Shown here in pieces: positions 24,815-62,582 of a stretch of DNA of 64,000 nucleotides. Location of the stretch: assembly GCA_903930255.1 (NCBI GenBank), contig CAIYYA010000249.1:1-64000 (forward strand). Direction: 5' to 3'. Below the pieces are notes generated by a model. It worked only from the letters and a program-made list of their open reading frames with translations. It was not told the DNA's origin and ran no database searches. Both the position numbers and the translations under genes were made by a program. Source of the stretch: an uncultured beta proteobacterium. GTDB lineage: Bacteria; Pseudomonadota; Gammaproteobacteria; Burkholderiales; Burkholderiaceae_C. Every line of letters begins with the position of its first letter. Position 1 is the first letter of the stretch.

Positions 24815-25579
24815 TCAAGTCACCGAATGGTGCTCGGGCAAAAGTGCTGCAACTGCGTCGCGTGCGTCAATGGCCCAGGTGCGGCGGTCACGCCCCCGGG
24901 CTTGCTCGATCGCGCCAAAGGTCAATGTCGCACACAGTGCAGGGGCGCTCAGGGTGCGCCAGATCGACCCTAGCAAAGTGTCTTGGTTGATGTAACAAGG
25001 TGCCAAACTAAGTTGGCCTGAAGCCTTATCAAAAAATCGCAAGGCAACCGGCACAATCGGCGCATGCGCTGATAACGCGGCTTGAAACAGGTTGGCATGA
25101 AACGGCAGCACCTGCTCACCATCACTGGTTGTGGCTTCGGGAAATATCACCAAAATAGCGCCGCCGCGCAAGCTATCGACCATTTGATGCACCACACGCA
25201 TCGCATCACGGCGCGATTTGCGCTCGACAAACAGCGTGTCAGCCGCGATGGCCAGCCGACCGATCAACGGCCAATGCTGAATATCCGACTTGGAAATAAA
25301 CCTTCCGTTGCACGATGCCAGCAACAACACAATATCAAGCCACGAAATATGATTCACCACCAGCAGTGCTGGGCCTTGCGTAGTGGGCTTGCCTTTTACT
25401 ACAAGTTGTATAGCTAGCCGCGCAAGCAGGGCAAGCGCCCAGAGTCGAATTCGTTCACGTTTTTGCGGCGCTGAAAGTCCAGGAAAAACAAGCATAACGG
25501 TGACCACACCGTGCACCAGATGCGCCATGACGCTGGCAAACCTGCCTAAAACGCCAAGTTGCCTAAGCAGCCGTATCAA
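24815..25579 (-). CDS. PlsC/OlsA-family 1-acyl-sn-glycerol-3-phosphate (lyso-lipid) acyltransferase
   Basis: NHISWLD (HX4D), FPEATTSDG; start overlaps the phoB end by 4 nt. Confidence 0.85.
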   Translation of the reverse strand: MIRLLRQLGVLGRFASVMAHLVHGVVTVMLVFPGLSAPQKRERIRLWALALLARLAIQLVVKGKPTTQGPALLVVNHISWLDIVLLLASCNGRFISKSDIQHWPLIGRLAIAADTLFVERKSRRDAMRVVHQMVDSLRGGAILVIFPEATTSDGEQVLPFHANLFQAALSAHAPIVPVALRFFDKASGQLSLAPCYINQDTLLGSIWRTLSAPALCATLTFGAIEQARGRDRRTWAIDARDAVAALLPEHHSVT

Positions 25580-30940: not shown

Positions 30941-32803
30941 CTAGCGAGACGCATTCACCAAAATCGCGTCCCGCACATACAAGCCCTCGCCTGCGGTTTT
31001 TGCATCATGTTTAGCACGCGCAGCAACCGAAGCCACCTGCTCGGCTGTGGCAAATTCACAGCATGAAATTTTTACAGCGCCGATCGACAAAGTTGTTAGC
31101 GGAAAAAATCGCGGAACTCCATGTCGATCGTCGGCCTGAATGCCGCCTGCCAGGCGGGCCGATTCATCAAAAAGTGACACGGCCAGTTTGCCAAACTCGG
31201 CGATGATTTCTTGACATTGTGCTTGCCAGTTATCGCTTTGATACAAGATGATGAAATCATCGCCCCCGACATGTCCGACAAAATCGCGCTGCGGATCGCA
31301 ATGCGCGGAAATAATCCGTGCGACCAGCCGAATCATTTCATCACCTCGCCAATAGCCATATTGGTCGTTGAATGGTTTGAAGTTATTCAGATCGGCGTAG
31401 CAAGCAACAAACTCAGTGCCACTGCCCAAGAGTCGTTCAATATGTTGACTAATCGGAATATTGCCCGGTAAAAATGTCAATGGATTGGCGTGCCGAGCCA
31501 CCTCGATGCGCGTCTCGGTGACCGAGCGCACCAGTTGCTCTCCGGTTCCCAAGCCCACATAGCGGCCATTTTCTGTCACGATAAAACCATCGGACAGATA
31601 GCGCTGATCATCCGAGGTCAATATGCCGATCAGTTCATCGACGTTATGGTTGCGCTCAATCAAACGGGGCGCCAAATTGGCATGCACCAGACAATGCTTG
31701 CGCCCCCAAACTTCCCGGTAGTACAACTTGCTAAATTCATTCATGAATTGCGACCGGTTAATGATTCCAATCGGCCGAGTGCCGTCAACCACAGCGACCG
31801 CATGCAGTGTTTCATGCTGCAAGAACAGGCTTGCCAGCTCATCATTGGTGCTGCTAAGGCCAACGCAAGGGGCATCCAACACAGCCAGACGACTGAGCGA
31901 GCCAGCACTGGATGCGCGGCGCAGTTCCGGAAATACAGAAACGCGGCGATCACGCATCAGGCCAAGCACTTTTGCCTCGATATTTGCCAGTGGCATGACT
32001 TCGGGGCGACCCAAAAAATAGCCTTGACCATAGCTAATTCCCAAATCGCGCAAGACACGCATGTCACTCTCGTTCTCTATGCCTTCAGCCACCAGGTCGG
32101 TGTCAAAAATTGCGGCAATTTGTTGCAATGCCTGGATTGTTTTGAGTTTGTCGGCGTGCTGACTGATGTTTTTGGTGAAGTATTTGTCAATCTTCACATA
32201 TTCGGGTTTGAGTTGTGACCAAAGCCGCAAACTCGACCGACCATCGCCAAAGTCGTCCAAAGCGAGTGACACACCCACTGAGCGAATTTCTGCTACCACT
32301 TTTGCTAAGTGATCCATGTCGGCAACCCGTTCGTACTCGGTAATTTCAAGCACCAGCATTCTTGGCATGACACCAAAAGCACTGATGAGTTCGATCAGTG
32401 GCATGGAGCCACAGTGCTTGATGACCTGCACCAGAACCTCTGCACTGATGTTGACAAACAGACGGCCTGACTCACACAAATCACCCCAGCGCACCAGTGC
32501 CGCAGCAACACAGGTGTTCTCGAACTCGAAATTCAACTGCTCTCGGGCAGCAGCAGCTAACAAAAAATCGGGTGTGTGAAACGATGTATTGAGCGGCCCC
32601 CTGATCAACGCTTCATGTGAATGGATGGAAGCATCGGCCAGTGCAACAATCGGTTGAAATACCGGGTAAAGCGCGTTGCTGCGCAAAATTTTGGCCAGTG
32701 GCCCGGTGCCCTGACGCACGGCGAGCGAAGACACCACGCCAGGGATCGATTTGACGAAGAAGTTAGGGGTGATATTGAGCGCTTGCGCAGGTTGACTTGA
32801 CAT
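30941..32803 (-). CDS. EAL-CBS-GGDEF composite signalling protein (GGDDF active-site variant)
   Basis: EALIRG, LALDDFGDGRSS, AEGIE (EAL); GHVGGDDFIILY (GGDEF-like); CBS-like middle. Confidence 0.88.
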   Translation of the reverse strand: MSSQPAQALNITPNFFVKSIPGVVSSLAVRQGTGPLAKILRSNALYPVFQPIVALADASIHSHEALIRGPLNTSFHTPDFLLAAAAREQLNFEFENTCVAAALVRWGDLCESGRLFVNISAEVLVQVIKHCGSMPLIELISAFGVMPRMLVLEITEYERVADMDHLAKVVAEIRSVGVSLALDDFGDGRSSLRLWSQLKPEYVKIDKYFTKNISQHADKLKTIQALQQIAAIFDTDLVAEGIENESDMRVLRDLGISYGQGYFLGRPEVMPLANIEAKVLGLMRDRRVSVFPELRRASSAGSLSRLAVLDAPCVGLSSTNDELASLFLQHETLHAVAVVDGTRPIGIINRSQFMNEFSKLYYREVWGRKHCLVHANLAPRLIERNHNVDELIGILTSDDQRYLSDGFIVTENGRYVGLGTGEQLVRSVTETRIEVARHANPLTFLPGNIPISQHIERLLGSGTEFVACYADLNNFKPFNDQYGYWRGDEMIRLVARIISAHCDPQRDFVGHVGGDDFIILYQSDNWQAQCQEIIAEFGKLAVSLFDESARLAGGIQADDRHGVPRFFPLTTLSIGAVKISCCEFATAEQVASVAARAKHDAKTAGEGLYVRDAILVNASR

Positions 32804-32952: not shown

Positions 32953-32970
32953 TGTGTCAGCCTCATGACA
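32953..32970 (-). promoter_or_regulatory. Possible degenerate Pho box upstream of the EAL-GGDEF gene
   Basis: TGTCATG-AGGC-TGACACA. Confidence 0.35.
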
Positions 32971-33098
32971 AAGCAAAGAAATCCAACCCATTCGTTAAGA
33001 AAAATAGTCGAAATTTGCTGTTTGAACCCATCATTTAGCTGGTGTTTTTAATTCAACCGTATAAACTGTATACCTCGTTTAATTAAAGGAAACTTATC

Positions 33099-33577: not shown

Positions 33578-34438
33578 TCAAGCTGTAATAGCCTCTTTGC
33601 TGTGTGATGGCACGTGGGTTGAATACACAGGCGCCCACTGCACCAACTCCAGACGACCATCAAAATGCTCAACCAAAGCAGTGCAGCTCTCAACCCAATC
33701 ACCATCATTGCAATAAAGAATGCCGTTGATGGTGCGCATTTCGGCGCGGTGAATGTGCCCGCACACAACGCCCTGATGGCCTCGGCGACGCGCTTCATTG
33801 GCCACGGCTTCTTCAAAGTCAGTCACATACATCAGCGCTTTTTTCACCCTTTGTTTCAGGTAAGCTGAAAGCGACCAATAGGGCAAACCGAGTTTCGCGC
33901 GCCAATGGTTCAGGTGCCGATTGAGTTTGAGTGTGAATTCATACAGGTTATCGCCCAAATATGCGAGCCACTTCGCGCACTGAATGACACCGTCAAAATA
34001 ATCGCCATGTGTAACCCAAAGCTGGCGGCCATCAGCGGTTGTGTGGATGGCATCAGTCAGCACATCAATACCGCCAAACTGGTGTCCGACGAAATGACGT
34101 GCAAATTCATCGTGATTGCCTGGCACATAGATCACCTGACACCCCTTGCGAGCGCGACGCAGCAGTTTTTGCACCACATCGTTGTGTGACTGTGGCCAAT
34201 ACCAACCACGGCGCAATTGCCAGCCGTCCACAATATCGCCGGCCAAATAGAGAAATTCGCTGGGGTGATTTTTCAAAAAATCCATCAAGGCGTCGGCTTG
34301 ACAGCCAGGTGTGCCCAAGTGCAGATCCGAAATAAAAATTGATCGGTATTGCTGCGCGACTGCGTCTTCTGTGTCTGGCTCGCTGGCCGTCTCGGCAGCA
34401 ACATTCCAAGGCCCCATGGCTTGGAAAGCCGCTCGCAT
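33578..34438 (-). CDS. plcP: PlcP-family metallophosphoesterase (LpxH-like fold; candidate phosphate-starvation phospholipase C)
   Basis: FISDLHLGTPGCQAD, GDIVDGW, RGWYWPQSHNDVVQKLLR, GNHDE, GDYFD, CGHIHRAE, NDGDWVESCTALVEH; start overlaps olsB stop (TGATG). Confidence 0.75.
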   Translation of the reverse strand: MRAAFQAMGPWNVAAETASEPDTEDAVAQQYRSIFISDLHLGTPGCQADALMDFLKNHPSEFLYLAGDIVDGWQLRRGWYWPQSHNDVVQKLLRRARKGCQVIYVPGNHDEFARHFVGHQFGGIDVLTDAIHTTADGRQLWVTHGDYFDGVIQCAKWLAYLGDNLYEFTLKLNRHLNHWRAKLGLPYWSLSAYLKQRVKKALMYVTDFEEAVANEARRRGHQGVVCGHIHRAEMRTINGILYCNDGDWVESCTALVEHFDGRLELVQWAPVYSTHVPSHSKEAITA

Positions 34439-35286
34439 CAGGCACCCAAAAAGTGTTTGCGATAACGCGGTGGCAAATCGCCAATGCGCATCAGCATGGG
34501 TAAATCTGCCGTATTGAAATCCGGATCCCAAGCGGGTGCGCCCAGCACTTTGGCGCCCAAACGCAAATAACCCTTGATCAGAGCGGGTGGCTCTACGTCT
34601 AAAGTTGCATCGAGTTGTTCCACCGGCAAGGCCAGGCGCGGACGCACATGGAATTCAATCCCAGCGAGATGGCTGGTCTGCAGTTGGCGCCAAATACTCG
34701 CCGCCACATCGCCGCTGACGATGCCGTTGTGCAACATGGGAATGCTGGCGCAACCAATCATGGTGTCGAGCTTGTTGCGCACCATAAACTCAGCCAACGC
34801 GCCCCACAGCGCCATGATGACACCCCCATGGCGATAGTTGGGATGCACGCAACTGCGCCCGAGTTCGACCATGCGCTCACGCAGACTGCGCAAACGGGTT
34901 AAATCAAACTCGAGGTCGCTGTAAGTGCTGCCCACTCGCTTGGCTTGGGCAGGTGTGAGAAGCCGGTATGTGCCCACCACTTGCTGGCTAATCTGGTCAC
35001 GCACCAGCAAATGCTCGCAATAGTCATCAAAGAAATCAACATCGTGATCCGGGATTGATGTGCTCAAACGTGCGCCCATTTCCTGCGCGAAAACCTGGTA
35101 TCTCAGGTGCTGTGCCTGGCGAATTTCGTCCGCATGTCGAGCCCACGAAACCGTGAGACCGCTGCGCTCCATTTGCGGGACCAACGGCTCACTGGCTCCT
35201 TGGAAATGTGTAAAAGGTCGATGAAGTGACCCCCGAGGCATCGACACCAGAGACACCGGAAATGTAGGGTTAGGCAGTTCTTTCAT
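34438..35286 (-). CDS. olsB: OlsB-family ornithine N-acyltransferase (GNAT/hemolysin-like)
   Basis: LRYQVFAQEMGARL...HDVDFFDDYCEHLLV, VVGTYRLL, ELGRSCVHPNYRHGGVIMALW. Confidence 0.8.
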   Translation of the reverse strand: MKELPNPTFPVSLVSMPRGSLHRPFTHFQGASEPLVPQMERSGLTVSWARHADEIRQAQHLRYQVFAQEMGARLSTSIPDHDVDFFDDYCEHLLVRDQISQQVVGTYRLLTPAQAKRVGSTYSDLEFDLTRLRSLRERMVELGRSCVHPNYRHGGVIMALWGALAEFMVRNKLDTMIGCASIPMLHNGIVSGDVAASIWRQLQTSHLAGIEFHVRPRLALPVEQLDATLDVEPPALIKGYLRLGAKVLGAPAWDPDFNTADLPMLMRIGDLPPRYRKHFLGA

Positions 35287-35387: not shown

Positions 35388-36140
35388 TTAAGCGTTGTCA
35401 AGCCACTGCCGCACCTGTTCAATTACCCAGGGAGCCGCGTCTAGCGGCAGGTCATGCCCGGCAGTGGGATGCAGTCGCAGGGCACATTGCCAATGCTCTG
35501 CCAGCACCTTGGAACAATGGACATTGACCAATTGGTCAGCCTCGCTGGCCAGCAACAAAACGCGCGCAACGCAGCGATCGGGTGTTGCACAAAATCGTGC
35601 GGCAGCAATCAATTGACGAAACGCATTGGCACGCGAAACTGGATGCGCTTGGCGTAATGCCAGCCATTGCGACAGCACGTCGCCATGAGCATGCTGCGTT
35701 GTCATGCGCAAAATAGCGCTTTCCCATTGTTGCGCCGATGTATCCAGCAGGATCAGTTTCAACAGGGTGATGTAATTGGGGCTGCGCAGCCGTTCATAAA
35801 ATGGACTAAATGGGCGCATGCTGGTGTTGATAAGAACATGCGCAGTGACCTCGTGCGGATAGACTTGCGCCCACGCTACAACCACCATGGCACCTAATGA
35901 CATGGCCAAAAAGTGATACGGTGGCGCAACACTTTGCGCCTTCAGTTGCTGTCGACAATGTTCCAGCATGACCTGCACAGACACCGGGCTGCGCTGCTGG
36001 AACAGCTGGCCGTTGCCGGGCAAGTCCAGAGCCGTCACCCGGCTAGCAGGCATTGCTTGCTCAAACTGCGTCAAAAATTCGCCCCAATGGCCACTTTCGC
36101 GCGTCAGCCCGCGTAGCAATATCCAGTTGTGTTGGTGCAT
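35388..36140 (-). CDS. Alpha/beta hydrolase
   Basis: LDLPGNGQ, FLAMSLGAMVVVAWA (Ser elbow), AGHDLPLDAA. Confidence 0.8.
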   Translation of the reverse strand: MHQHNWILLRGLTRESGHWGEFLTQFEQAMPASRVTALDLPGNGQLFQQRSPVSVQVMLEHCRQQLKAQSVAPPYHFLAMSLGAMVVVAWAQVYPHEVTAHVLINTSMRPFSPFYERLRSPNYITLLKLILLDTSAQQWESAILRMTTQHAHGDVLSQWLALRQAHPVSRANAFRQLIAAARFCATPDRCVARVLLLASEADQLVNVHCSKVLAEHWQCALRLHPTAGHDLPLDAAPWVIEQVRQWLDNA

Positions 36141-37153
36141 CAGTACCAGTCTTCCAAAGCTTGCACATGCTGTTGTGCGCGGGCTTCATGGCTGGGCAGC
36201 CACAGATGATGGCCACAGGCTGCGCGCGAAAGAAAATCAAGCAGCAGTTGATGCTGTCGCAGCACCCGCTGTTGGCGATGCTCGATCAAGGGGTTAAAAA
36301 TGCCGTGACGTGAAAACAATTGCCGTGGATTTTTCTTCACCCACAACCAAGAACCCATCTCCAGCGTTAAAGGCAAAAAAATTCGCTCGGCATGCTGACT
36401 TGCTTGCAAATACAAATAGTCCCATACATCGCCATGCGCCAGGTACTGAAGACTTTGCGGCTCAATGATGTAGCGATGATGACTATGCGACTGCACAAAA
36501 ATGCTTTTCAAAGCATGCATCTCTGCCAAATGCGAAATTGGCGCCCGGGTATGTGCAAACGGAAACCAGATGCGGTCGCTGGTGCCAAAACCCGAATGGC
36601 AATCCACGCTCAGACTGAATTTGCGCGACAGTAGTTCGGTGCTCACTACTTCGCACAAAGCCTGATTCTCAAGTTCCATGGCTTTGTTTTTAAGACCCCG
36701 GTACCAAGGTAACCCGGCACTAAAACGCTGACCTCCGACTAAAAATGGCACTTGCTCACGCGCCTCAACTGGTGCGTTTCGCATCAAATCAACACCCAAA
36801 GGATTGGCACGCGTACCCATTGCCATGCCGCCCGGGTTGACGATCGGCATAAAAACGAGACGCACAGATTCAAGCTGACTGCGCAGGCTGCTGTCCCATT
36901 GAAGGCGCATCACCAGGCTTTGCAAATAGGCGATCACCACGCCTGCGCCGATGCGCTCAAGCCCGTGAACACCACCGAAATAGCCAACTGCTGGCACATC
37001 GGGTGAGTCGCTCCCCAAAGTGATCACATGCACCGGGTAAGTTTCACCATTGGGCAAATTGACCACACAGGCAACACGTGCCTGCAACCAACCATCGCCC
37101 AGTTCAATGATGCGCTCCAGAGCGACGAGTTCAGGCAACTTGGATTGATTCAC
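36140..37153 (-). CDS. M14-family zinc carboxypeptidase-like protein
   Basis: GGVHGLERIG, IVNPGGMAMGTRANPLGVDLMRN, VDCHSGFG; overlaps the next gene (TGATG). Confidence 0.78.
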   Translation of the reverse strand: MNQSKLPELVALERIIELGDGWLQARVACVVNLPNGETYPVHVITLGSDSPDVPAVGYFGGVHGLERIGAGVVIAYLQSLVMRLQWDSSLRSQLESVRLVFMPIVNPGGMAMGTRANPLGVDLMRNAPVEAREQVPFLVGGQRFSAGLPWYRGLKNKAMELENQALCEVVSTELLSRKFSLSVDCHSGFGTSDRIWFPFAHTRAPISHLAEMHALKSIFVQSHSHHRYIIEPQSLQYLAHGDVWDYLYLQASQHAERIFLPLTLEMGSWLWVKKNPRQLFSRHGIFNPLIEHRQQRVLRQHQLLLDFLSRAACGHHLWLPSHEARAQQHVQALEDWY

Positions 37154-37160
37154 AATGGCT

Positions 37161-37178
37161 TGTCACACCGTTGTCATG
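37161..37178 (+). promoter_or_regulatory. Pho box (rightward)
   Basis: TGTCACA-CCGT-TGTCATG. Confidence 0.75.
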
Positions 37179-37224
37179 GGTTATAGCTAACGTGAACATT
37201 TTCACGATTCAACGCTTACCAACC

Positions 37225-37344
37225 ATGTGGCACAAATCTGTTTTATTTCGATTAATCACCATTTCTGCTTGCCTGGCTTGGGGTTTTCTTGAGTTTCTTG
37301 CTTTGCAGCGCGCACGTTTTGCCTTCCGCCGTCTGAATCAATAG
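37225..37344 (+). CDS. Candidate 39-aa small membrane protein (MWHKSVLFRLITISACLAWGFLEFLALQRARFAFRRLNQ*)
   Basis: Not in the ORF track (below length cutoff); one hydrophobic segment with basic tail; ~50 nt downstream of a Pho box. No clear SD; in-frame GTG at 37192 is an alternative start. Confidence 0.5.
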   Translation: MWHKSVLFRLITISACLAWGFLEFLALQRARFAFRRLNQ

Positions 37345-37365: not shown

Positions 37366-38409
37366 CTACTCGTTGGGCTGAGAAACCAGCACCGGACTGA
37401 CTTGGAAGAGGTTGCTTGAGTTTGGGTCTACTCTCACGCGCACCCAGTGCAACGACGGGCTGCCAAAAGTTTGCAGACGGGTTAGGTTGGACAGCAATTT
37501 GCCAGGGTTGTAGAGCGGTTTGTCGAGCTTAAAAAAGTGGGTGTCGCCGTGCACAAACAGCACTTGCCCTTTGAACTGCTCGGTTTGCTGCACCAGTTGT
37601 GACATGAAATGGCGATAACCACTCACACCGGGTGCCGTGCTTTCATCGGTATTTTCGGTTTCAGGCAAGTCAAACCCAGGGTCGCCCTGCACCACCAGAA
37701 CCAGACCCAATGCCTTTTGTGCCTTGGCTTGCGCAAAGGCTGCCGTCAGCCAAGTCACATTGGCGGCATCACGTTCGAGGTACTCCGCATTTGCCGCATC
37801 GCATTGCGCTGCGTTGCGCGCGCTTTTGCTGGTGCATTCCTTGGCATTGAGAACCAGGTTGTTATTGCTGCCCGGCATGTTAATGGCTGTAAATACCACG
37901 CCAGAATGTGAGAAACGGGTGTTTTCAACATATTTCTCGCCCTGCTTGCCTTGATGCTCGAGGGCTATTTGTGTTTGTCCCAAGCTGGAGGTCGTAGGGA
38001 ACATCACACGACGGATATGCGCCAGGCGCTCCAGCGGATCCATGCCCCCATTGTTCAACCGGTGGCAATCCGTCCACTCGTTATCACCTAGAACATAAAC
38101 CACCGGCATTTTCATGCTGCCAAACATTTTCAATGCATCGGTGTAGACATCGTCTGTACATTTGGAGCTGCCATCCTTGATGTCACCGTCATACAGAGAA
38201 AACGCAATGTCAGACTGGTTAATGCTCTGCAACACAGCGGGCAGCTTGGGCTCATCTCCGGCTTTTTTGTAGGGCATATCGCCCCACAAACCAAATGCAA
38301 ATTTTTGCGGAGTCGCTGAATCCATCAGCGCTGAGCTGGTCGGTGCAGTGGCAGCACACGATATCAAACCCAGAGCAACAAAAACGGACAACAAACACTT
38401 TTTAAGCAT
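37366..38409 (-). CDS. Secreted/lipoprotein metallophosphoesterase
   Basis: LISCAA lipobox; GDMPYKKAG...YDGDIKDG...LGDNEWTDC...VHGDTHFF. Confidence 0.8.
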   Translation of the reverse strand: MLKKCLLSVFVALGLISCAATAPTSSALMDSATPQKFAFGLWGDMPYKKAGDEPKLPAVLQSINQSDIAFSLYDGDIKDGSSKCTDDVYTDALKMFGSMKMPVVYVLGDNEWTDCHRLNNGGMDPLERLAHIRRVMFPTTSSLGQTQIALEHQGKQGEKYVENTRFSHSGVVFTAINMPGSNNNLVLNAKECTSKSARNAAQCDAANAEYLERDAANVTWLTAAFAQAKAQKALGLVLVVQGDPGFDLPETENTDESTAPGVSGYRHFMSQLVQQTEQFKGQVLFVHGDTHFFKLDKPLYNPGKLLSNLTRLQTFGSPSLHWVRVRVDPNSSNLFQVSPVLVSQPNE

Positions 38410-38450: not shown

Positions 38451-38468
38451 TGTGTCAATGTGGTGACA
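38451..38468 (-). promoter_or_regulatory. Possible degenerate Pho box upstream of the metallophosphoesterase
   Basis: TGTCACC-ACAT-TGACACA. Confidence 0.35.
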
Positions 38469-38534
38469 GCAGGCCAATTGATTGCACAAGGAAGCGCCAG
38501 ACTTGAACTCGTACACGTCCGGTTTGGCTCGCAT

Positions 38535-38552
38535 AGTCACTGCTTTGTCATA
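38535..38552 (+). promoter_or_regulatory. Pho box upstream of the 5'-nucleotidase
   Basis: AGTCACT-GCTT-TGTCATA, ~50 nt upstream of the ATG. Confidence 0.55.
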
Positions 38553-38600: not shown

Positions 38601-40835
38601 ATGAGATTTTTGAACATCGGTCGAATTCAATTGACAGCGACTGCTAGCGCAGTTCTGCTGGGCCTTGCCGGTTGTGGTGGTGGCACAGGCCAATCGCAAT
38701 CTCAAGGTGTGTTTCTTGATGCCGCCGTCACCGGCGTTAGTTACAGTGGCGACAAAGGCACCAGCGGCATCACCGCAACGGGCGGCACCTTCAATTACTA
38801 CCCTGGCGAAAACATCACCTTCAGCATCGGTTCAATGGTCTTGGGTACGGCCCCAGGCGCACCGGTATTGACGCCAGTTGCTTTGGATAATTTGGGCGGC
38901 GCCATTGGAGCGCAAGCCAACCGCGTTCTGCGCACGTTGCAAACGCTTGACAGCGACGATGACCCCAGCAACGGCATCACCATTTCTGCAGAGATGCGTG
39001 GTGCTGTCAAAAAAGTTCTTCACCTCTCCAATGCCAGTGAAGTTGATCTTCTGAGTGCGGTACAGCAAGCAAGACCCGCTATCGCTATGAAGAGCGAAGC
39101 TGACTCACTGCAACATTTTGCCGAAACATTGGTTAGCAGCAACATCGTCCTGAAGCCCCCAGTTGCGGCCGCAGGCACCCCAGTCACATTCACATTGATG
39201 CACACCAACGACACGCACTCGCGCATGGAGAGTTTCACCGATACGATTTTGCAAGGTGGCGTAGCCAGACGCAAAACACTGGTTGACCAAGCACGCACCG
39301 AAATCGATCCAGGACAAACCTGCAAAAATCAGATGCTGGTGGATGCGGGTGACTTCTCACAGGGCACCGTGTATTACAACGCCTGGGAAGGTAGCGAATC
39401 GGTGATGGCCATGAACGCCATGAGTTACGACGTGGTCACTCTGGGCAATCACGAATTCGACCTCGGTCCAGCCAAACTGGCGCGCGCACTCAAGGGTGAA
39501 ATAATTGCGATTGCAGGCACCGACTACCCAACTGAAAAGCCAACTTTTGCAGTTGTTGCCAGCAACATTGATGCAACCAAAGAACCCGCCCTGAAAGGTC
39601 TGCTGAAGAAATTCACCATCATTGAACGCTGCGGACAAAAATACGGCGTTATTGCTGCAACCACCGAAGATGTGCCACTGATCGCGAGCCCTGGTGCCAA
39701 CGTTAAATTTTTGGACTATGTCAAAACTGTCAACGCATCTACAGCCCTGCTCAAGGCGCAGGGCATTAACAAAATTATTCTTTTGTCACATTACGGCTAT
39801 AGCGTTGACATTGCCAAAGCGGCTGAACTCTCGGGGGTTGACATCATCGTCAGCGGGCACGACCACAAGCTGTTAGGCACGGCTGATTACATCAACACAC
39901 AGACCAGTTCAGCAACCTTGACACCGGCCTATGTTGGTCAGGGCAGCCTAAGCAGTGGGGCTTACCCGACACAATTGACCAACCGCGATGGTGATGCTGT
40001 TTTGGTCGTGTCTGCTTTTGAGTGGGGTCGCTGGCTAGGACGCGTCGAGGTCAACTTTGATGCCAATGGCAAGGTTTTATCTGGCGTGAATAAATCTAAG
40101 TTTGTTGACGGTCGCAGTGTTGCCGAAGATAGCGCCTTAGCAGCCAAAGTCGCAACTTACTATGCGCCAGTGCAAGCTTCCAGCAGCGTGATTGTCGGAA
40201 CCAGTGGCAGCGCTTTTCCCGCAGACCGTGGCACACTGACACCTGCTTTCACCGTTGGCCTTCGCACAGGCGAAACCACGCTGGGAAATTTGGCTGGTGA
40301 CCTGCTGCAAGCTGCAGCCAAGAGCACAGACGGCACAGTTGCCGCCTTTACCAACGGTGGTGGCTTACGTGCCGCCATACCCGCTGGCACCGTGACTTTT
40401 GGCACCGCCTTGAGTGTTTTGCCATTTGGTAACACCCTGTATGTGATGGATCTGACAGGCCAAGACCTGATCGACCTGATGGAGGCCAGCGCCAGCAAAG
40501 TGGGCGGCGGCGGCTTCTTGCAGCATTCAAAAGAGTTGCGCATGACTTACTGTGCCGATGCCCTCACCTGCACCAATCCATTGAAGACGGGCGGCAAAGT
40601 GACATCAGTTCAGATCAACGGTGTTGCCGTTGAAACGAGCAAACGCTATCGCGTGGCCACCAACAACTTCACGGCTGGGGGTGGAGATGGTTACGATGTG
40701 CTCAAAAATGCTTGCTTGCGCACGGGCAACTATTGCCGCGATACAGGCATTGTGATGTTGGATCTGCTAGTCAACCAGTTGAAGACCAACCAGCCCCTCA
40801 GTGCTCCAATCGACGGACGCATCACCCGACTTTAA
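38601..40835 (+). CDS. 5'-nucleotidase/UshA-family lipoprotein
   Basis: LAGCGGG lipobox; LMHTNDTHSRME, GNHEFDLGPAKLA, SGHDHKLLG, NGGGLRAAIPAG. Confidence 0.92.
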   Translation: MRFLNIGRIQLTATASAVLLGLAGCGGGTGQSQSQGVFLDAAVTGVSYSGDKGTSGITATGGTFNYYPGENITFSIGSMVLGTAPGAPVLTPVALDNLGGAIGAQANRVLRTLQTLDSDDDPSNGITISAEMRGAVKKVLHLSNASEVDLLSAVQQARPAIAMKSEADSLQHFAETLVSSNIVLKPPVAAAGTPVTFTLMHTNDTHSRMESFTDTILQGGVARRKTLVDQARTEIDPGQTCKNQMLVDAGDFSQGTVYYNAWEGSESVMAMNAMSYDVVTLGNHEFDLGPAKLARALKGEIIAIAGTDYPTEKPTFAVVASNIDATKEPALKGLLKKFTIIERCGQKYGVIAATTEDVPLIASPGANVKFLDYVKTVNASTALLKAQGINKIILLSHYGYSVDIAKAAELSGVDIIVSGHDHKLLGTADYINTQTSSATLTPAYVGQGSLSSGAYPTQLTNRDGDAVLVVSAFEWGRWLGRVEVNFDANGKVLSGVNKSKFVDGRSVAEDSALAAKVATYYAPVQASSSVIVGTSGSAFPADRGTLTPAFTVGLRTGETTLGNLAGDLLQAAAKSTDGTVAAFTNGGGLRAAIPAGTVTFGTALSVLPFGNTLYVMDLTGQDLIDLMEASASKVGGGGFLQHSKELRMTYCADALTCTNPLKTGGKVTSVQINGVAVETSKRYRVATNNFTAGGGDGYDVLKNACLRTGNYCRDTGIVMLDLLVNQLKTNQPLSAPIDGRITRL

Positions 40836-52514: not shown

Positions 52515-53376
52515 GAGCCTGGCCCATGCGAATATTGCTGTCCTGGGTCAACCCATCGCACAAGGTAAAACCCTTGGGTGCCAGCACAATCACCGTTGAG
52601 CCATGCTGAAACCAGCCCATCTCCTGGCCTTTTTTAAAGCCGGCATGGCAGGCGATGACCTTGGGGCCCGCATACTTCAAATGCAGCAGAACATCCAGAA
52701 AATGCAGCCGGATGCTGGCTACCAAGATGGCCGCAACGGGCACCAAGGCAATGCGCTTGCCATGCAGCGAACCTTGACCATCAAGACGCGTTTGAAGATA
52801 CGCCCGCTCGTTTTTACAAAACAGTTTTTCAACCCGCTTCAAGGCAATCGGATTGACGTTCCAGGTATCACCCGAAAAATAGCGCACTTTTTCGACCATG
52901 CAATCAAAGGGGGCATGAAACCGGTGGTACATGCTCGAAGTCAGCCGCAGTGTCACAAAGTAGCCGTCTTGCCAGTCTTCAATGTGCTGCTCATCGCCGA
53001 TCAAATCTTGCAGGGCATACGGAAATCCTTTGGCCTGGAACACTTGGCCGCGCGCAATCGGGCCGTGGGCTCCCACGATGGCATCCACCGGACTGGACAA
53101 ACTATCTACCGCCATGCTGATCGGCCGCACGCCGTCCTTAAGCTCGCGCGTAAAACAGTCGTGCATGCTGGTGAAGTGGCTTTTTTTAGCCTCGCTCAGA
53201 TCAAGCGCCGAAAAAAACTTCCAGATACCAATCGACAGATCACGTACCCAAGGGTGCTCGATTTTGCTGAATCGCCCCATAAATTGGGTCAGCCAGCGAC
53301 GCGGCAGGCGATTGGTCAGCAAAAAGTTCAGGTCTTCCTGACTCAGTATTTTTTGAATGTGGTGGCGAAAGCTCAT
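52495..53376 (-). CDS. psd: Phosphatidylserine decarboxylase
   Basis: SPVDAIVGAHG, MYHRFHAPFDCMVEK, WFQHGSTVIVLAPKG (GST cleavage motif). Confidence 0.88.
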   Translation of the reverse strand: MSFRHHIQKILSQEDLNFLLTNRLPRRWLTQFMGRFSKIEHPWVRDLSIGIWKFFSALDLSEAKKSHFTSMHDCFTRELKDGVRPISMAVDSLSSPVDAIVGAHGPIARGQVFQAKGFPYALQDLIGDEQHIEDWQDGYFVTLRLTSSMYHRFHAPFDCMVEKVRYFSGDTWNVNPIALKRVEKLFCKNERAYLQTRLDGQGSLHGKRIALVPVAAILVASIRLHFLDVLLHLKYAGPKVIACHAGFKKGQEMGWFQHGSTVIVLAPKGFTLCDGLTQDSNIRMGQALMHWSD

Positions 53377-53411
53377 GGGGCAAATGCTCGTTGTAAATAT
53401 GACATTGAAAG

Positions 53412-55115
53412 GTGATATTCGTGGATGAAACTATTGGACTGAATTCGATGCTCGTGTACCTTGTTGGCGGCGGCGCACTGGTGGTCGTGTTGGGCAAGTT
53501 GAAAGCTCGCCTTGAGCTTTCGCTGGCCAAACACCGCTCGCTGGCAGGGCACCCGCGCATCGCCAGACGCATCGCAGCACTGCTGCCTGTTTACAGCTAT
53601 GACGCGGCACAGGCTTTTGGACTTGACGGCGCCACGCCAGAAGTTGTTGCGCAGAGAACAAAGGCATTTGATGACTTGACTGCGAAATTCACCCAGCGGT
53701 TTCCCAACAGCGTGAATGCCACTGTTCAGGCGAGCAGCGGACTGTCTGACCTGCAATTCATCAGCGCTTACCGAATCCCGTTCCAGTTTCGGCAATTTGC
53801 AGCAGACCGGCTGAAAATCGGCTCGTTTGTCAAATCCACCGAAGGCGTGACGGTCACAGATTTGGATGACAACCTTTTTTATGACCTGACCGGCTCTTAC
53901 GGTGTCAATCTGTTCGGCAATGATTTCTACAAGGACTGTATCGATCAGGGTGCCGACCTGGTGAGGGCTCTGGGGCCGGTGCTGGGCGCTTATCACCCGG
54001 TGGTGTTGGACAACGTGGCGCGTTTGAAGGCTATCTCCGGTATGGACGAGGTCAGCTTTCATATGTCGGGCACCGAAGCCGTGATGCAGGCCGTGCGCCT
54101 GGCGCGTTACCACAGCGCGCGCGACAAGGTGGTGCGTTTTTGCGGCTCTTACCATGGCTGGTGGGGCGATGTGCAGCCCGGCATAGGCAACCCGATCAAA
54201 GCCCGCGACACCTTCACACTGGCCGAAATGAGCGAGGCCACGCTGCGCGTTTTGCGCAAGCGCAGCGACATTGCCTGCATCTTGATCAACCCACTGCAAG
54301 CGCTGCACCCAAACGCAGCGGCACCGGGCGATTCGTCGCTGCTGGACAGCTCGCGCAAAGCCCGTTTCGACAAACCCGGCTACACCGCCTGGCTGCACGC
54401 TTTGCGAAAAATTTGCGACGACAAAGGCATTGCGCTGATCTTTGACGAGGTATTTGTCGGTTTTCGCCTGGCACCAGCTGGGGCGCAAGAATACTTCGGT
54501 GTGCGGGCAGATATCGTTACCTATGGCAAAACACTGGGAGGTGGGCTGCCCATCGGCGTGGTGTGTGGTAAGGCCCATTGGATGAAGCGTTTTAACGCGC
54601 ATTTTCCAGCCGACATTTGCTTCGCCCGGGGCACCTTCAACGCCCACCCATATGTAATGGGTGCCATGAATGTTTTTCTGAAAAGCCAGGAGCGTGCAGA
54701 AATTCAAGCACTCTATGTCGATCTGGATGCCACCTGGAACCAGCGTGCACAAACGCTCAACCAACGTCTGCGCGACGAAAACCTGCCGCTTCAAGTGGCC
54801 AACTTGTCGTCGATATGGACCGTGCTTTACACCCAACCGGCATGCTACAACTGGCTGTTTCAACACTATTTACGCCTCGAAGGATTGGCATTGAGCTGGG
54901 TCGGCACAGGTCGGATCATCTTCAGTTTGAATTACAAGCAAGAAGATTTCGCTCAGGTGGTCGAACGATTTGTGCGCGCTGCACACAACATGCGTCGTGA
55001 TGGCTGGTGGCAAGCTGCGCCATCCATCACCAACCAGTCAATCAAGAGGCGCATCAGCAAAGAATTACTCCAAGCAAAATTTGGATCGAATCGAAGCGTT
55101 GCTTCTTGCGCATAA
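53412..55115 (+). CDS. Class III PLP aminotransferase (GSA-aminomutase-like) with N-terminal hydrophobic segment
   Basis: MSGTEAVMQAVRLAR, FDEVFVGFR, TYGKTLGGGLPIGV; N-terminal MLVYLVGGGALVVVLGKL. Confidence 0.85.
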   Translation: MIFVDETIGLNSMLVYLVGGGALVVVLGKLKARLELSLAKHRSLAGHPRIARRIAALLPVYSYDAAQAFGLDGATPEVVAQRTKAFDDLTAKFTQRFPNSVNATVQASSGLSDLQFISAYRIPFQFRQFAADRLKIGSFVKSTEGVTVTDLDDNLFYDLTGSYGVNLFGNDFYKDCIDQGADLVRALGPVLGAYHPVVLDNVARLKAISGMDEVSFHMSGTEAVMQAVRLARYHSARDKVVRFCGSYHGWWGDVQPGIGNPIKARDTFTLAEMSEATLRVLRKRSDIACILINPLQALHPNAAAPGDSSLLDSSRKARFDKPGYTAWLHALRKICDDKGIALIFDEVFVGFRLAPAGAQEYFGVRADIVTYGKTLGGGLPIGVVCGKAHWMKRFNAHFPADICFARGTFNAHPYVMGAMNVFLKSQERAEIQALYVDLDATWNQRAQTLNQRLRDENLPLQVANLSSIWTVLYTQPACYNWLFQHYLRLEGLALSWVGTGRIIFSLNYKQEDFAQVVERFVRAAHNMRRDGWWQAAPSITNQSIKRRISKELLQAKFGSNRSVASCA

Positions 55116-55291
55116 TTTAACGAGCAATCATTTCAGTGGCGTGACAAGCAGCTCCGGGTGCCTCTTCTTTGAATTCAGTATTTAGCATGTTTTATGCCAC
55201 TAGCGCTTATTCCAATTGCGTGAGCAGCTATTAAATTTGAAGCGCAATCAAGCGGGTCTCGGGCACTGGGTAAACTCATACGGCTATCACA

Positions 55292-61825: not shown

Positions 61826-61873
61826 GTTCGTTGGCAAAACGATTTGCATTTTTTGTTTTAGCCTCATCTCGCT

Positions 61874-61891
61874 TGTCACCGAAGTGTCATG
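61874..61891 (+). promoter_or_regulatory. Pho box upstream of the 207-aa membrane protein
   Basis: TGTCACC-GAAG-TGTCATG. Confidence 0.75.
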
Positions 61892-61958: not shown

Positions 61959-62582
61959 ATGGGTGATTTTTTGAAGAAGATTGAGATATTGCAGCAAGAC
62001 GATCATCGTTTCTATCACCAATGCCGTATCAACCAGACGCTGCACTTGATCAGTGCGCTCAGCTTCCTGGTCGCCTATGCCTTGCTTTTTGTTAACCCGG
62101 CAGCAGCCGGCATGGTGGGTTGGCTGGTGGGCATGGTGACGCGTCAATCCGGGCATCTATTTTTTGAGCCACGTGGCTACGACTCCATTAATCAAGCAAC
62201 CTATGCGCACAAGGAATCCATCAAGGCGGGCTACAACATGCGCCGCAAGGCTGTCTTGATTTCGGTATGGTTGGCTCTGCCGACTTTGCTTGCCTTGAGC
62301 CCAAGTTTGTTTGGATCCATCGAACCCGCTGTGGGGCTGAGCGGCTGGATGCATGATGTGGGTCTTTTATGGTTGGCTTTGGGAGCCGGTGGCCTGCTGT
62401 TTCGCACCCTGCATCTGTTTTTCCTGCGCGGCCCAGCATGGGGCATGGCTTGGTTCTGCAAAATTTTGCTAGACCCCTTTCACAATGTAGCCAACTACTG
62501 GAACTCGCCGATTGCCTTGCTCCGCGGGCAGCGCTATGACCCCTTGGATTCATGCAAAAAAGAGCTCCACACCAGCCTGTGA
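61959..62582 (+). CDS. Conserved-looking membrane protein of unknown function (GHLFFEPRGYDSINQATYAHKESIKAGYNMRRK)
   Basis: 207 aa, 3-4 predicted TMs by eye, AAGGAG SD upstream of ATG. Confidence 0.8.
   Translation: MGDFLKKIEILQQDDHRFYHQCRINQTLHLISALSFLVAYALLFVNPAAAGMVGWLVGMVTRQSGHLFFEPRGYDSINQATYAHKESIKAGYNMRRKAVLISVWLALPTLLALSPSLFGSIEPAVGLSGWMHDVGLLWLALGAGGLLFRTLHLFFLRGPAWGMAWFCKILLDPFHNVANYWNSPIALLRGQRYDPLDSCKKELHTSL

Follow-up and report, generated by a model that had tools for sequence, protein, structure and literature searches.

A conserved microprotein gene behind a predicted Pho promoter, divergent from an M14 peptidase gene

Which gene does a Pho box serve when it reads rightward between two genes that both lie on the minus strand? 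The question is raised by a 64,000-nt stretch of DNA from a Rhodoferax-type bacterium (hereafter, the window), which also carries, near the box, a Pst operon together with genes for PhoU and a regulator of the PhoB type. An earlier note had proposed that an unlisted 39-aa open reading frame beyond the box encodes a small Pho-regulated membrane protein, possibly a partner of lipid or phosphatase enzymes. Our analysis supports this interpretation in part. We are confident that the frame encodes a conserved, Pho-regulated microprotein, and the neighbour with which it is regularly associated is a divergently transcribed gene for an M14 peptidase.

The Pho box and its promoter

The sequence TGTCACACCGTTGTCATG occupies positions 37161 to 37178 (plus strand), and the T that precedes it completes an 18-nt Pho box, TTGTCACACCGTTGTCAT (37160 to 37177, plus strand), which consists of two 7-nt repeats placed 11 nt apart and has 0 mismatches to TTGTCAYNNNNYTGTCAY. 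The box reads rightward, and the genes on either side of it, at 36140 to 37153 (M14 peptidase) and 37366 to 38409, are both on the minus strand, as the earlier note had observed. Scored with a weight matrix built from 30 Rhodoferax pstS promoters only, the box reaches 25.6 bits and comes 4th in the window when every position of either strand is ranked, behind the pstS site and two others; shuffled upstream regions scored 8.1 bits at most. The rightward Pho box called in the note is confirmed by its match and its score.

Exactly 10 nt past the box, at 37188 to 37193 (plus strand), lies a predicted -10 element, TAACGT. The same order of box, 10 nt, and TANNNT is present in 30 of the 30 Rhodoferax pstS promoters examined, and of the 49 microprotein loci that have a good box, 47 carry TANNNT at an offset of exactly 10. 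Activation by PhoB is thought to need strict spacing between the box and the core promoter (PMC10294691). No sigma-70 -35/-10 pair was found in the promoter region of the microprotein gene. Of 61 microprotein homologues scored with the pstS-only matrix, 55 have a pstS-like promoter above the 99% level of the shuffles, and 36 of 49 loci in a second, mostly non-Rhodoferax set exceeded the 99% null, where the shuffles preserved single-base composition only and the scored loci are phylogenetically related. Like the Rhodoferax pstS promoters, the microprotein promoter combines an 18-nt box, a 10-nt spacer, and a TANNNT -10 element; unlike them, other Rhodoferax microprotein loci often have CTGACAC as the first half-site in place of the TTGTCAC that is found in the window's box. 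The gene carries the marks of a Pho regulon member, an 18-nt box of two direct repeats upstream and a -10 element at strict, pstS-like spacing. Judged by this architecture, its promoter is a Pho promoter, and it points rightward, as the note had supposed.

The box also remains beside the microprotein gene at loci that retain only a remnant of M14 (L140 and L149) and at loci where M14 lies elsewhere (L160, L163, and L166). Because the box stays with the microprotein gene where M14 has decayed or moved, we assign it to the microprotein gene.

Several other features of the window may be linked to phosphate. A strong Pho promoter at 61873 to 61890 (plus strand; 26.9 bits, the second best in the window) lies upstream of a 207-aa open reading frame (61959 to 62582) that has no Pfam match. 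A strong Pho-promoter score at 55130 to 55147 (minus strand; 26.3 bits) points leftward; the long open reading frame to its left (53412 to 55115) is on the plus strand, and only an overlapping minus-strand frame (53373 to 54866) fits its direction. Between pstS and the OlsB region, the gene for an EAL/CBS/GGDEF protein (30941 to 32803, minus strand) has a Pho promoter upstream, with its box at 32954 to 32971 (minus strand; 20.5 bits). The protein recalls RapA of Pseudomonas fluorescens, a Pho-controlled c-di-GMP phosphodiesterase (PMC3032545). The minus-strand gene at 37366 to 38409 encodes a 347-aa protein that has no Pfam or NCBIfam match and appears by eye to be a divergent phosphoesterase-like protein; it shares a divergent region with a UshA-like gene (38601 to 40835), in which two weaker Pho boxes are located (38452 to 38469, minus strand, and 38534 to 38551, plus strand). 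An acyltransferase gene at the end of the pst-phoU-phoB cluster (24815 to 25579, minus strand) and the gene for an OlsB-like N-acyltransferase (34438 to 35286, minus strand) plausibly form an ornithine-lipid pathway within the phosphate island.

The microprotein family

The open reading frame downstream of the promoter, from the ATG at 37225 to the TAG ending at 37344 (plus strand), encodes the 39-aa peptide MWHKSVLFRLITISACLAWGFLEFLALQRARFAFRRLNQ, which is predicted to form a single membrane helix. A 57-aa version starting at the in-frame TTG at 37171 was rejected because its start lies upstream of the inferred transcription start. Using the 39-aa peptide as a query against 60 relatives, we found matches throughout the genus, and a profile search matched 57 of 90 Rhodoferax genomes strongly, which establishes the frame that the note called unlisted as conserved at the protein level. 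Carriers beyond Rhodoferax include Acidovorax, Hydrogenophaga, Polaromonas, Variovorax, Azoarcus, and Solimonas, among others. Most of the weak matches that the first profile searches gave in genomes of other orders were judged to be due to chance, and tblastn found no copy of the microprotein in PLSDB plasmids.

The alignment of the family begins at the initiator Met. Its core reads WGxxE(F/L)xALxR(S/A)R, and R9, G20, E23, L27, Q28, and R29 are invariant or nearly so. The W-G-x-x-E-(F/L) part of this core recurs across Burkholderiales together with an upstream Pho box, in agreement with the small Pho-regulated membrane protein predicted in the note. When codons of the microprotein gene are compared, 99.6% of pairs have a lower pN than pS. 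Among the pairs that are truly close, pN/pS is mostly 0 to 0.48, and three of these pairs have several synonymous and zero non-synonymous changes; some distant, saturated pairs have values of about 1. These comparisons indicate that the frame, whose conservation the note had offered as a check, is kept under purifying selection, and they argue that the microprotein gene is a real coding gene. The Shine-Dalgarno sequence is weak or absent in most Rhodoferax microprotein genes, and some distant members have one. In place of a clear Shine-Dalgarno sequence, the 5′ region (37207 to 37224 in the window; loci L116 to L175) often reads ctctcacaccATG.

AlphaFold2 models the microprotein as one helix that spans residues 3 to 38 (mean pLDDT, 85). 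In length and predicted shape it fits the small membrane proteins (under 50 to 60 aa, with one hydrophobic helix), although a few members reach 60 to 71 aa. Because the C-terminal flank is more positive than the N-terminal side in 103 of 125 members, a C-in orientation is favored, and the topology is probably N-out/C-in. Conserved residues are concentrated in the C-terminal half, and a conservation-moment test for a single interaction face on the helix was not significant (P = 0.07 to 0.15). We discarded the reading of IPAC as the lipobox of a lipoprotein, as distant members do not keep the Cys.

Profile searches of Pfam, NCBIfam, and PDB returned no significant match to the microprotein, the best of the isolated, chance-level ones having E = 0.011. 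The Pfam profile of DUF1127 gave zero matches in 22 members (E ≤ 1) and in 46 members (E ≤ 0.1), and in our searches of the literature no paper described the family. By these comparisons, the microprotein belongs to a family that is new but of a known kind.

The divergent M14 peptidase gene

Head to head with the microprotein gene lies a gene for an M14 zinc carboxypeptidase (36140 to 37153, minus strand; PF00246, E = 6.5e−17), followed by a gene for an alpha/beta hydrolase (35388 to 36140, minus strand; PF12697/PF00561), the usual second gene of the divergent operon. M14 is the divergent neighbor of the microprotein gene in 54 of 60 loci, and the alpha/beta hydrolase gene is usually next. When M14 served as the anchor for locating the microprotein in named genomes, the microprotein gene was upstream and divergent in 68 of the 78 M14 loci with usable flank. 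The M14-linked microprotein gene occurs in Rhodoferax, Acidovorax, Hydrogenophaga, Polaromonas, Variovorax, Ramlibacter, Rhizobacter, Paucibacter, Methylibium, Aquabacterium, Azoarcus, Rhodocyclus tenuis, Dechloromonas, Solimonas, and Stagnimonas, among others; at the M14 loci of Aromatoleum, Roseateles toxinivorans, Rhodocyclus purpureus, Uliginosibacterium, and Ramlibacter WS9, the search did not find it. In one class-level match (G1082), the microprotein gene is again head to head with M14.

The two genes are also distributed together. In raw counts over 90 Rhodoferax genomes, which ignore kinship and assembly gaps, 54 genomes have both M14 and the microprotein, 3 have the microprotein only, 1 has M14 only, and 32 have neither; the alpha/beta hydrolase, present in 37 of the 90 genomes and never without the microprotein, gives 37 both, 20 microprotein only, 0 hydrolase only, and 33 neither; and OlsB gives 51 both, 6 microprotein only, 14 OlsB only, and 19 neither. 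The lipid-enzyme partner suggested in the note was rejected, since OlsB is present in 65 of the 90 genomes, 14 of which lack the microprotein, and is not a conserved neighbor; the ornithine-lipid genes are only loosely coupled to the microprotein. Phosphatases, the other suggested partners, are not conserved neighbors either, the gene at 37366 to 38409 following the microprotein gene only in the window and two relatives.

In the sole genome of the genus that has M14 and lacks the microprotein (G085, locus L315), M14 follows immediately after OlsB, in the same orientation. Because two Rhodoferax genomes keep the microprotein although M14 is reduced to remnants, dependence on M14 is not absolute. 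In one of the two, G098, ALQRSR has become VLQRFR, so that two strongly conserved residues are altered, and the basic tail is shortened; this change lends anecdotal support to a dependence on M14.

At about ten loci (L129, L130, L132, L136 to L138, L142, L144, L147, and L154), M14 has its own predicted leftward Pho promoter (box, 10 nt, TA...T), located at about −110 relative to the start of the microprotein. At these loci, each of the two divergent genes appears to be under Pho control, and most M14 genes have no clear promoter of this kind. The predicted fold of M14 is that of a classical carboxypeptidase A/B/T. Because its N-terminus, by inspection, shows no signal peptide, we take M14 to be a probably cytosolic enzyme.

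What the microprotein may do

The reality of the gene, the architecture of its promoter, the breadth of the family, and its genomic and phyletic coupling to M14 were computed, and from them we infer PhoB binding, translation, topology, and contact with M14 and its effect. On balance, we regard the M14 pathway as the likely functional partner of the microprotein, and we lean toward a PhoB-dependent, probably monocistronic gene whose product is a single-pass inner-membrane microprotein acting with that pathway. Under phosphate limitation, phospho-PhoB would bind the 18-nt box and direct RNA polymerase to the -10 element that follows after 10 nt. The encoded single helix, hydrophobic in its middle part and strongly basic at its C-terminal end, would be inserted in the inner membrane, where its conserved G-x-x-E-x-x-A-L-x-R-S-R half may contact the M14 enzyme. 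There, the microprotein could anchor, position, or regulate the M14 peptidase, often alongside the alpha/beta hydrolase. That it is a direct tether or regulator of M14 we consider possible but less likely than not; the same goes for the reading in which, under phosphate starvation, it holds a cytosolic M14 carboxypeptidase at the inner membrane or switches the enzyme there.

Other explanations account for part of these observations. The conserved sequence could be a DNA or RNA element, such as a leader of the divergently transcribed M14 gene or a region that regulates it, with the open reading frame incidental to it, as the head-to-head arrangement, the weak Shine-Dalgarno sequences, and the position of the window's box, just 7 nt upstream of the M14 start codon, would suggest. 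However, selection appears to act at the amino-acid level, the protein motif is recognizable across families and classes, the box and -10 element point away from M14, whose start is roughly 100 nt from the box in most loci, and the microprotein locus has no match in Rfam; we consider such an element very improbable. A starvation-induced membrane-active peptide like YohP of Escherichia coli, which would lower the membrane potential or slow metabolism with no specific partner, fits the size, single helix, and basic tail of the microprotein. Yet a purely membrane-active helix needs none of the G, E, Q, and R residues that are nearly invariant over several families, and the co-inheritance with M14 would be left unexplained, so we think a peptide of this type improbable.

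It is also conceivable, though unlikely in our judgment, that the Pho-induced microprotein acts on another membrane target, by feedback on PhoR or by modulating Pst or lipid-synthesis enzymes, and that M14 is a mere stable neighbor. Small proteins acting on PhoR exist (DUF1127; PMC12501420), the microprotein and its box outlast the decay of M14 in two genomes and persist where M14 lies elsewhere, and the microprotein gene is near the pst operon in the window. Against such a target, PstS is present in genomes that lack the microprotein (e.g., G003, G006, and G016), neither pst nor lipid genes are conserved neighbors, and M14 is nearly always co-present and co-absent with the microprotein. Action with the M14 pathway remains the reading that we prefer.

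Microproteins of the CydX, KdpF, and AcrZ type are single helices of 30 to 50 aa that attach to a specific partner, a membrane complex encoded in the same operon. The microprotein described here resembles them in its length, its single predicted helix, and its co-inheritance with a specific partner gene, but its candidate partner is a predicted soluble M14 peptidase that is divergently transcribed. The conservation of CydX has been studied (PMC4325964). The small proteins of DUF1127 (YjiS family), which bind PhoR (PMC12501420), are similarly shorter than about 50 aa, basic, and linked to phosphate control, whereas the microprotein is predicted to be a hydrophobic membrane helix, driven by a Pho box and encoded beside M14. 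YohP, which starvation induces, dissipates the membrane potential and has a mainly N-out/C-in topology (PMC12719787). Together with other stress-induced small membrane proteins of E. coli, it shares with the microprotein a single membrane helix, a basic tail, a link to starvation, and a likely N-out/C-in topology; however, no sequence relation was detected, and the microprotein has Pho box regulation, a conserved polar motif, and a conserved partner gene. DUF1127 proteins and YohP are, at best, functional analogues.

With the microprotein, the Pho regulon of environmental beta- and some gammaproteobacteria would gain a widely conserved gene that ordinary gene finding misses because it is too short, and an M14 peptidase pathway that is unstudied would come into view as part of the response to phosphate starvation. 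Since its motif, its promoter, and its partner gene have been defined, the proposal is directly testable in cultured strains such as Acidovorax radicis, Hydrogenophaga pseudoflava, or Variovorax boronicumulans. If the microprotein does tether or switch M14 at the membrane, the Pho response would be connected with the way in which the cell turns over peptides, fragments of its wall, or N-acyl amino acids.
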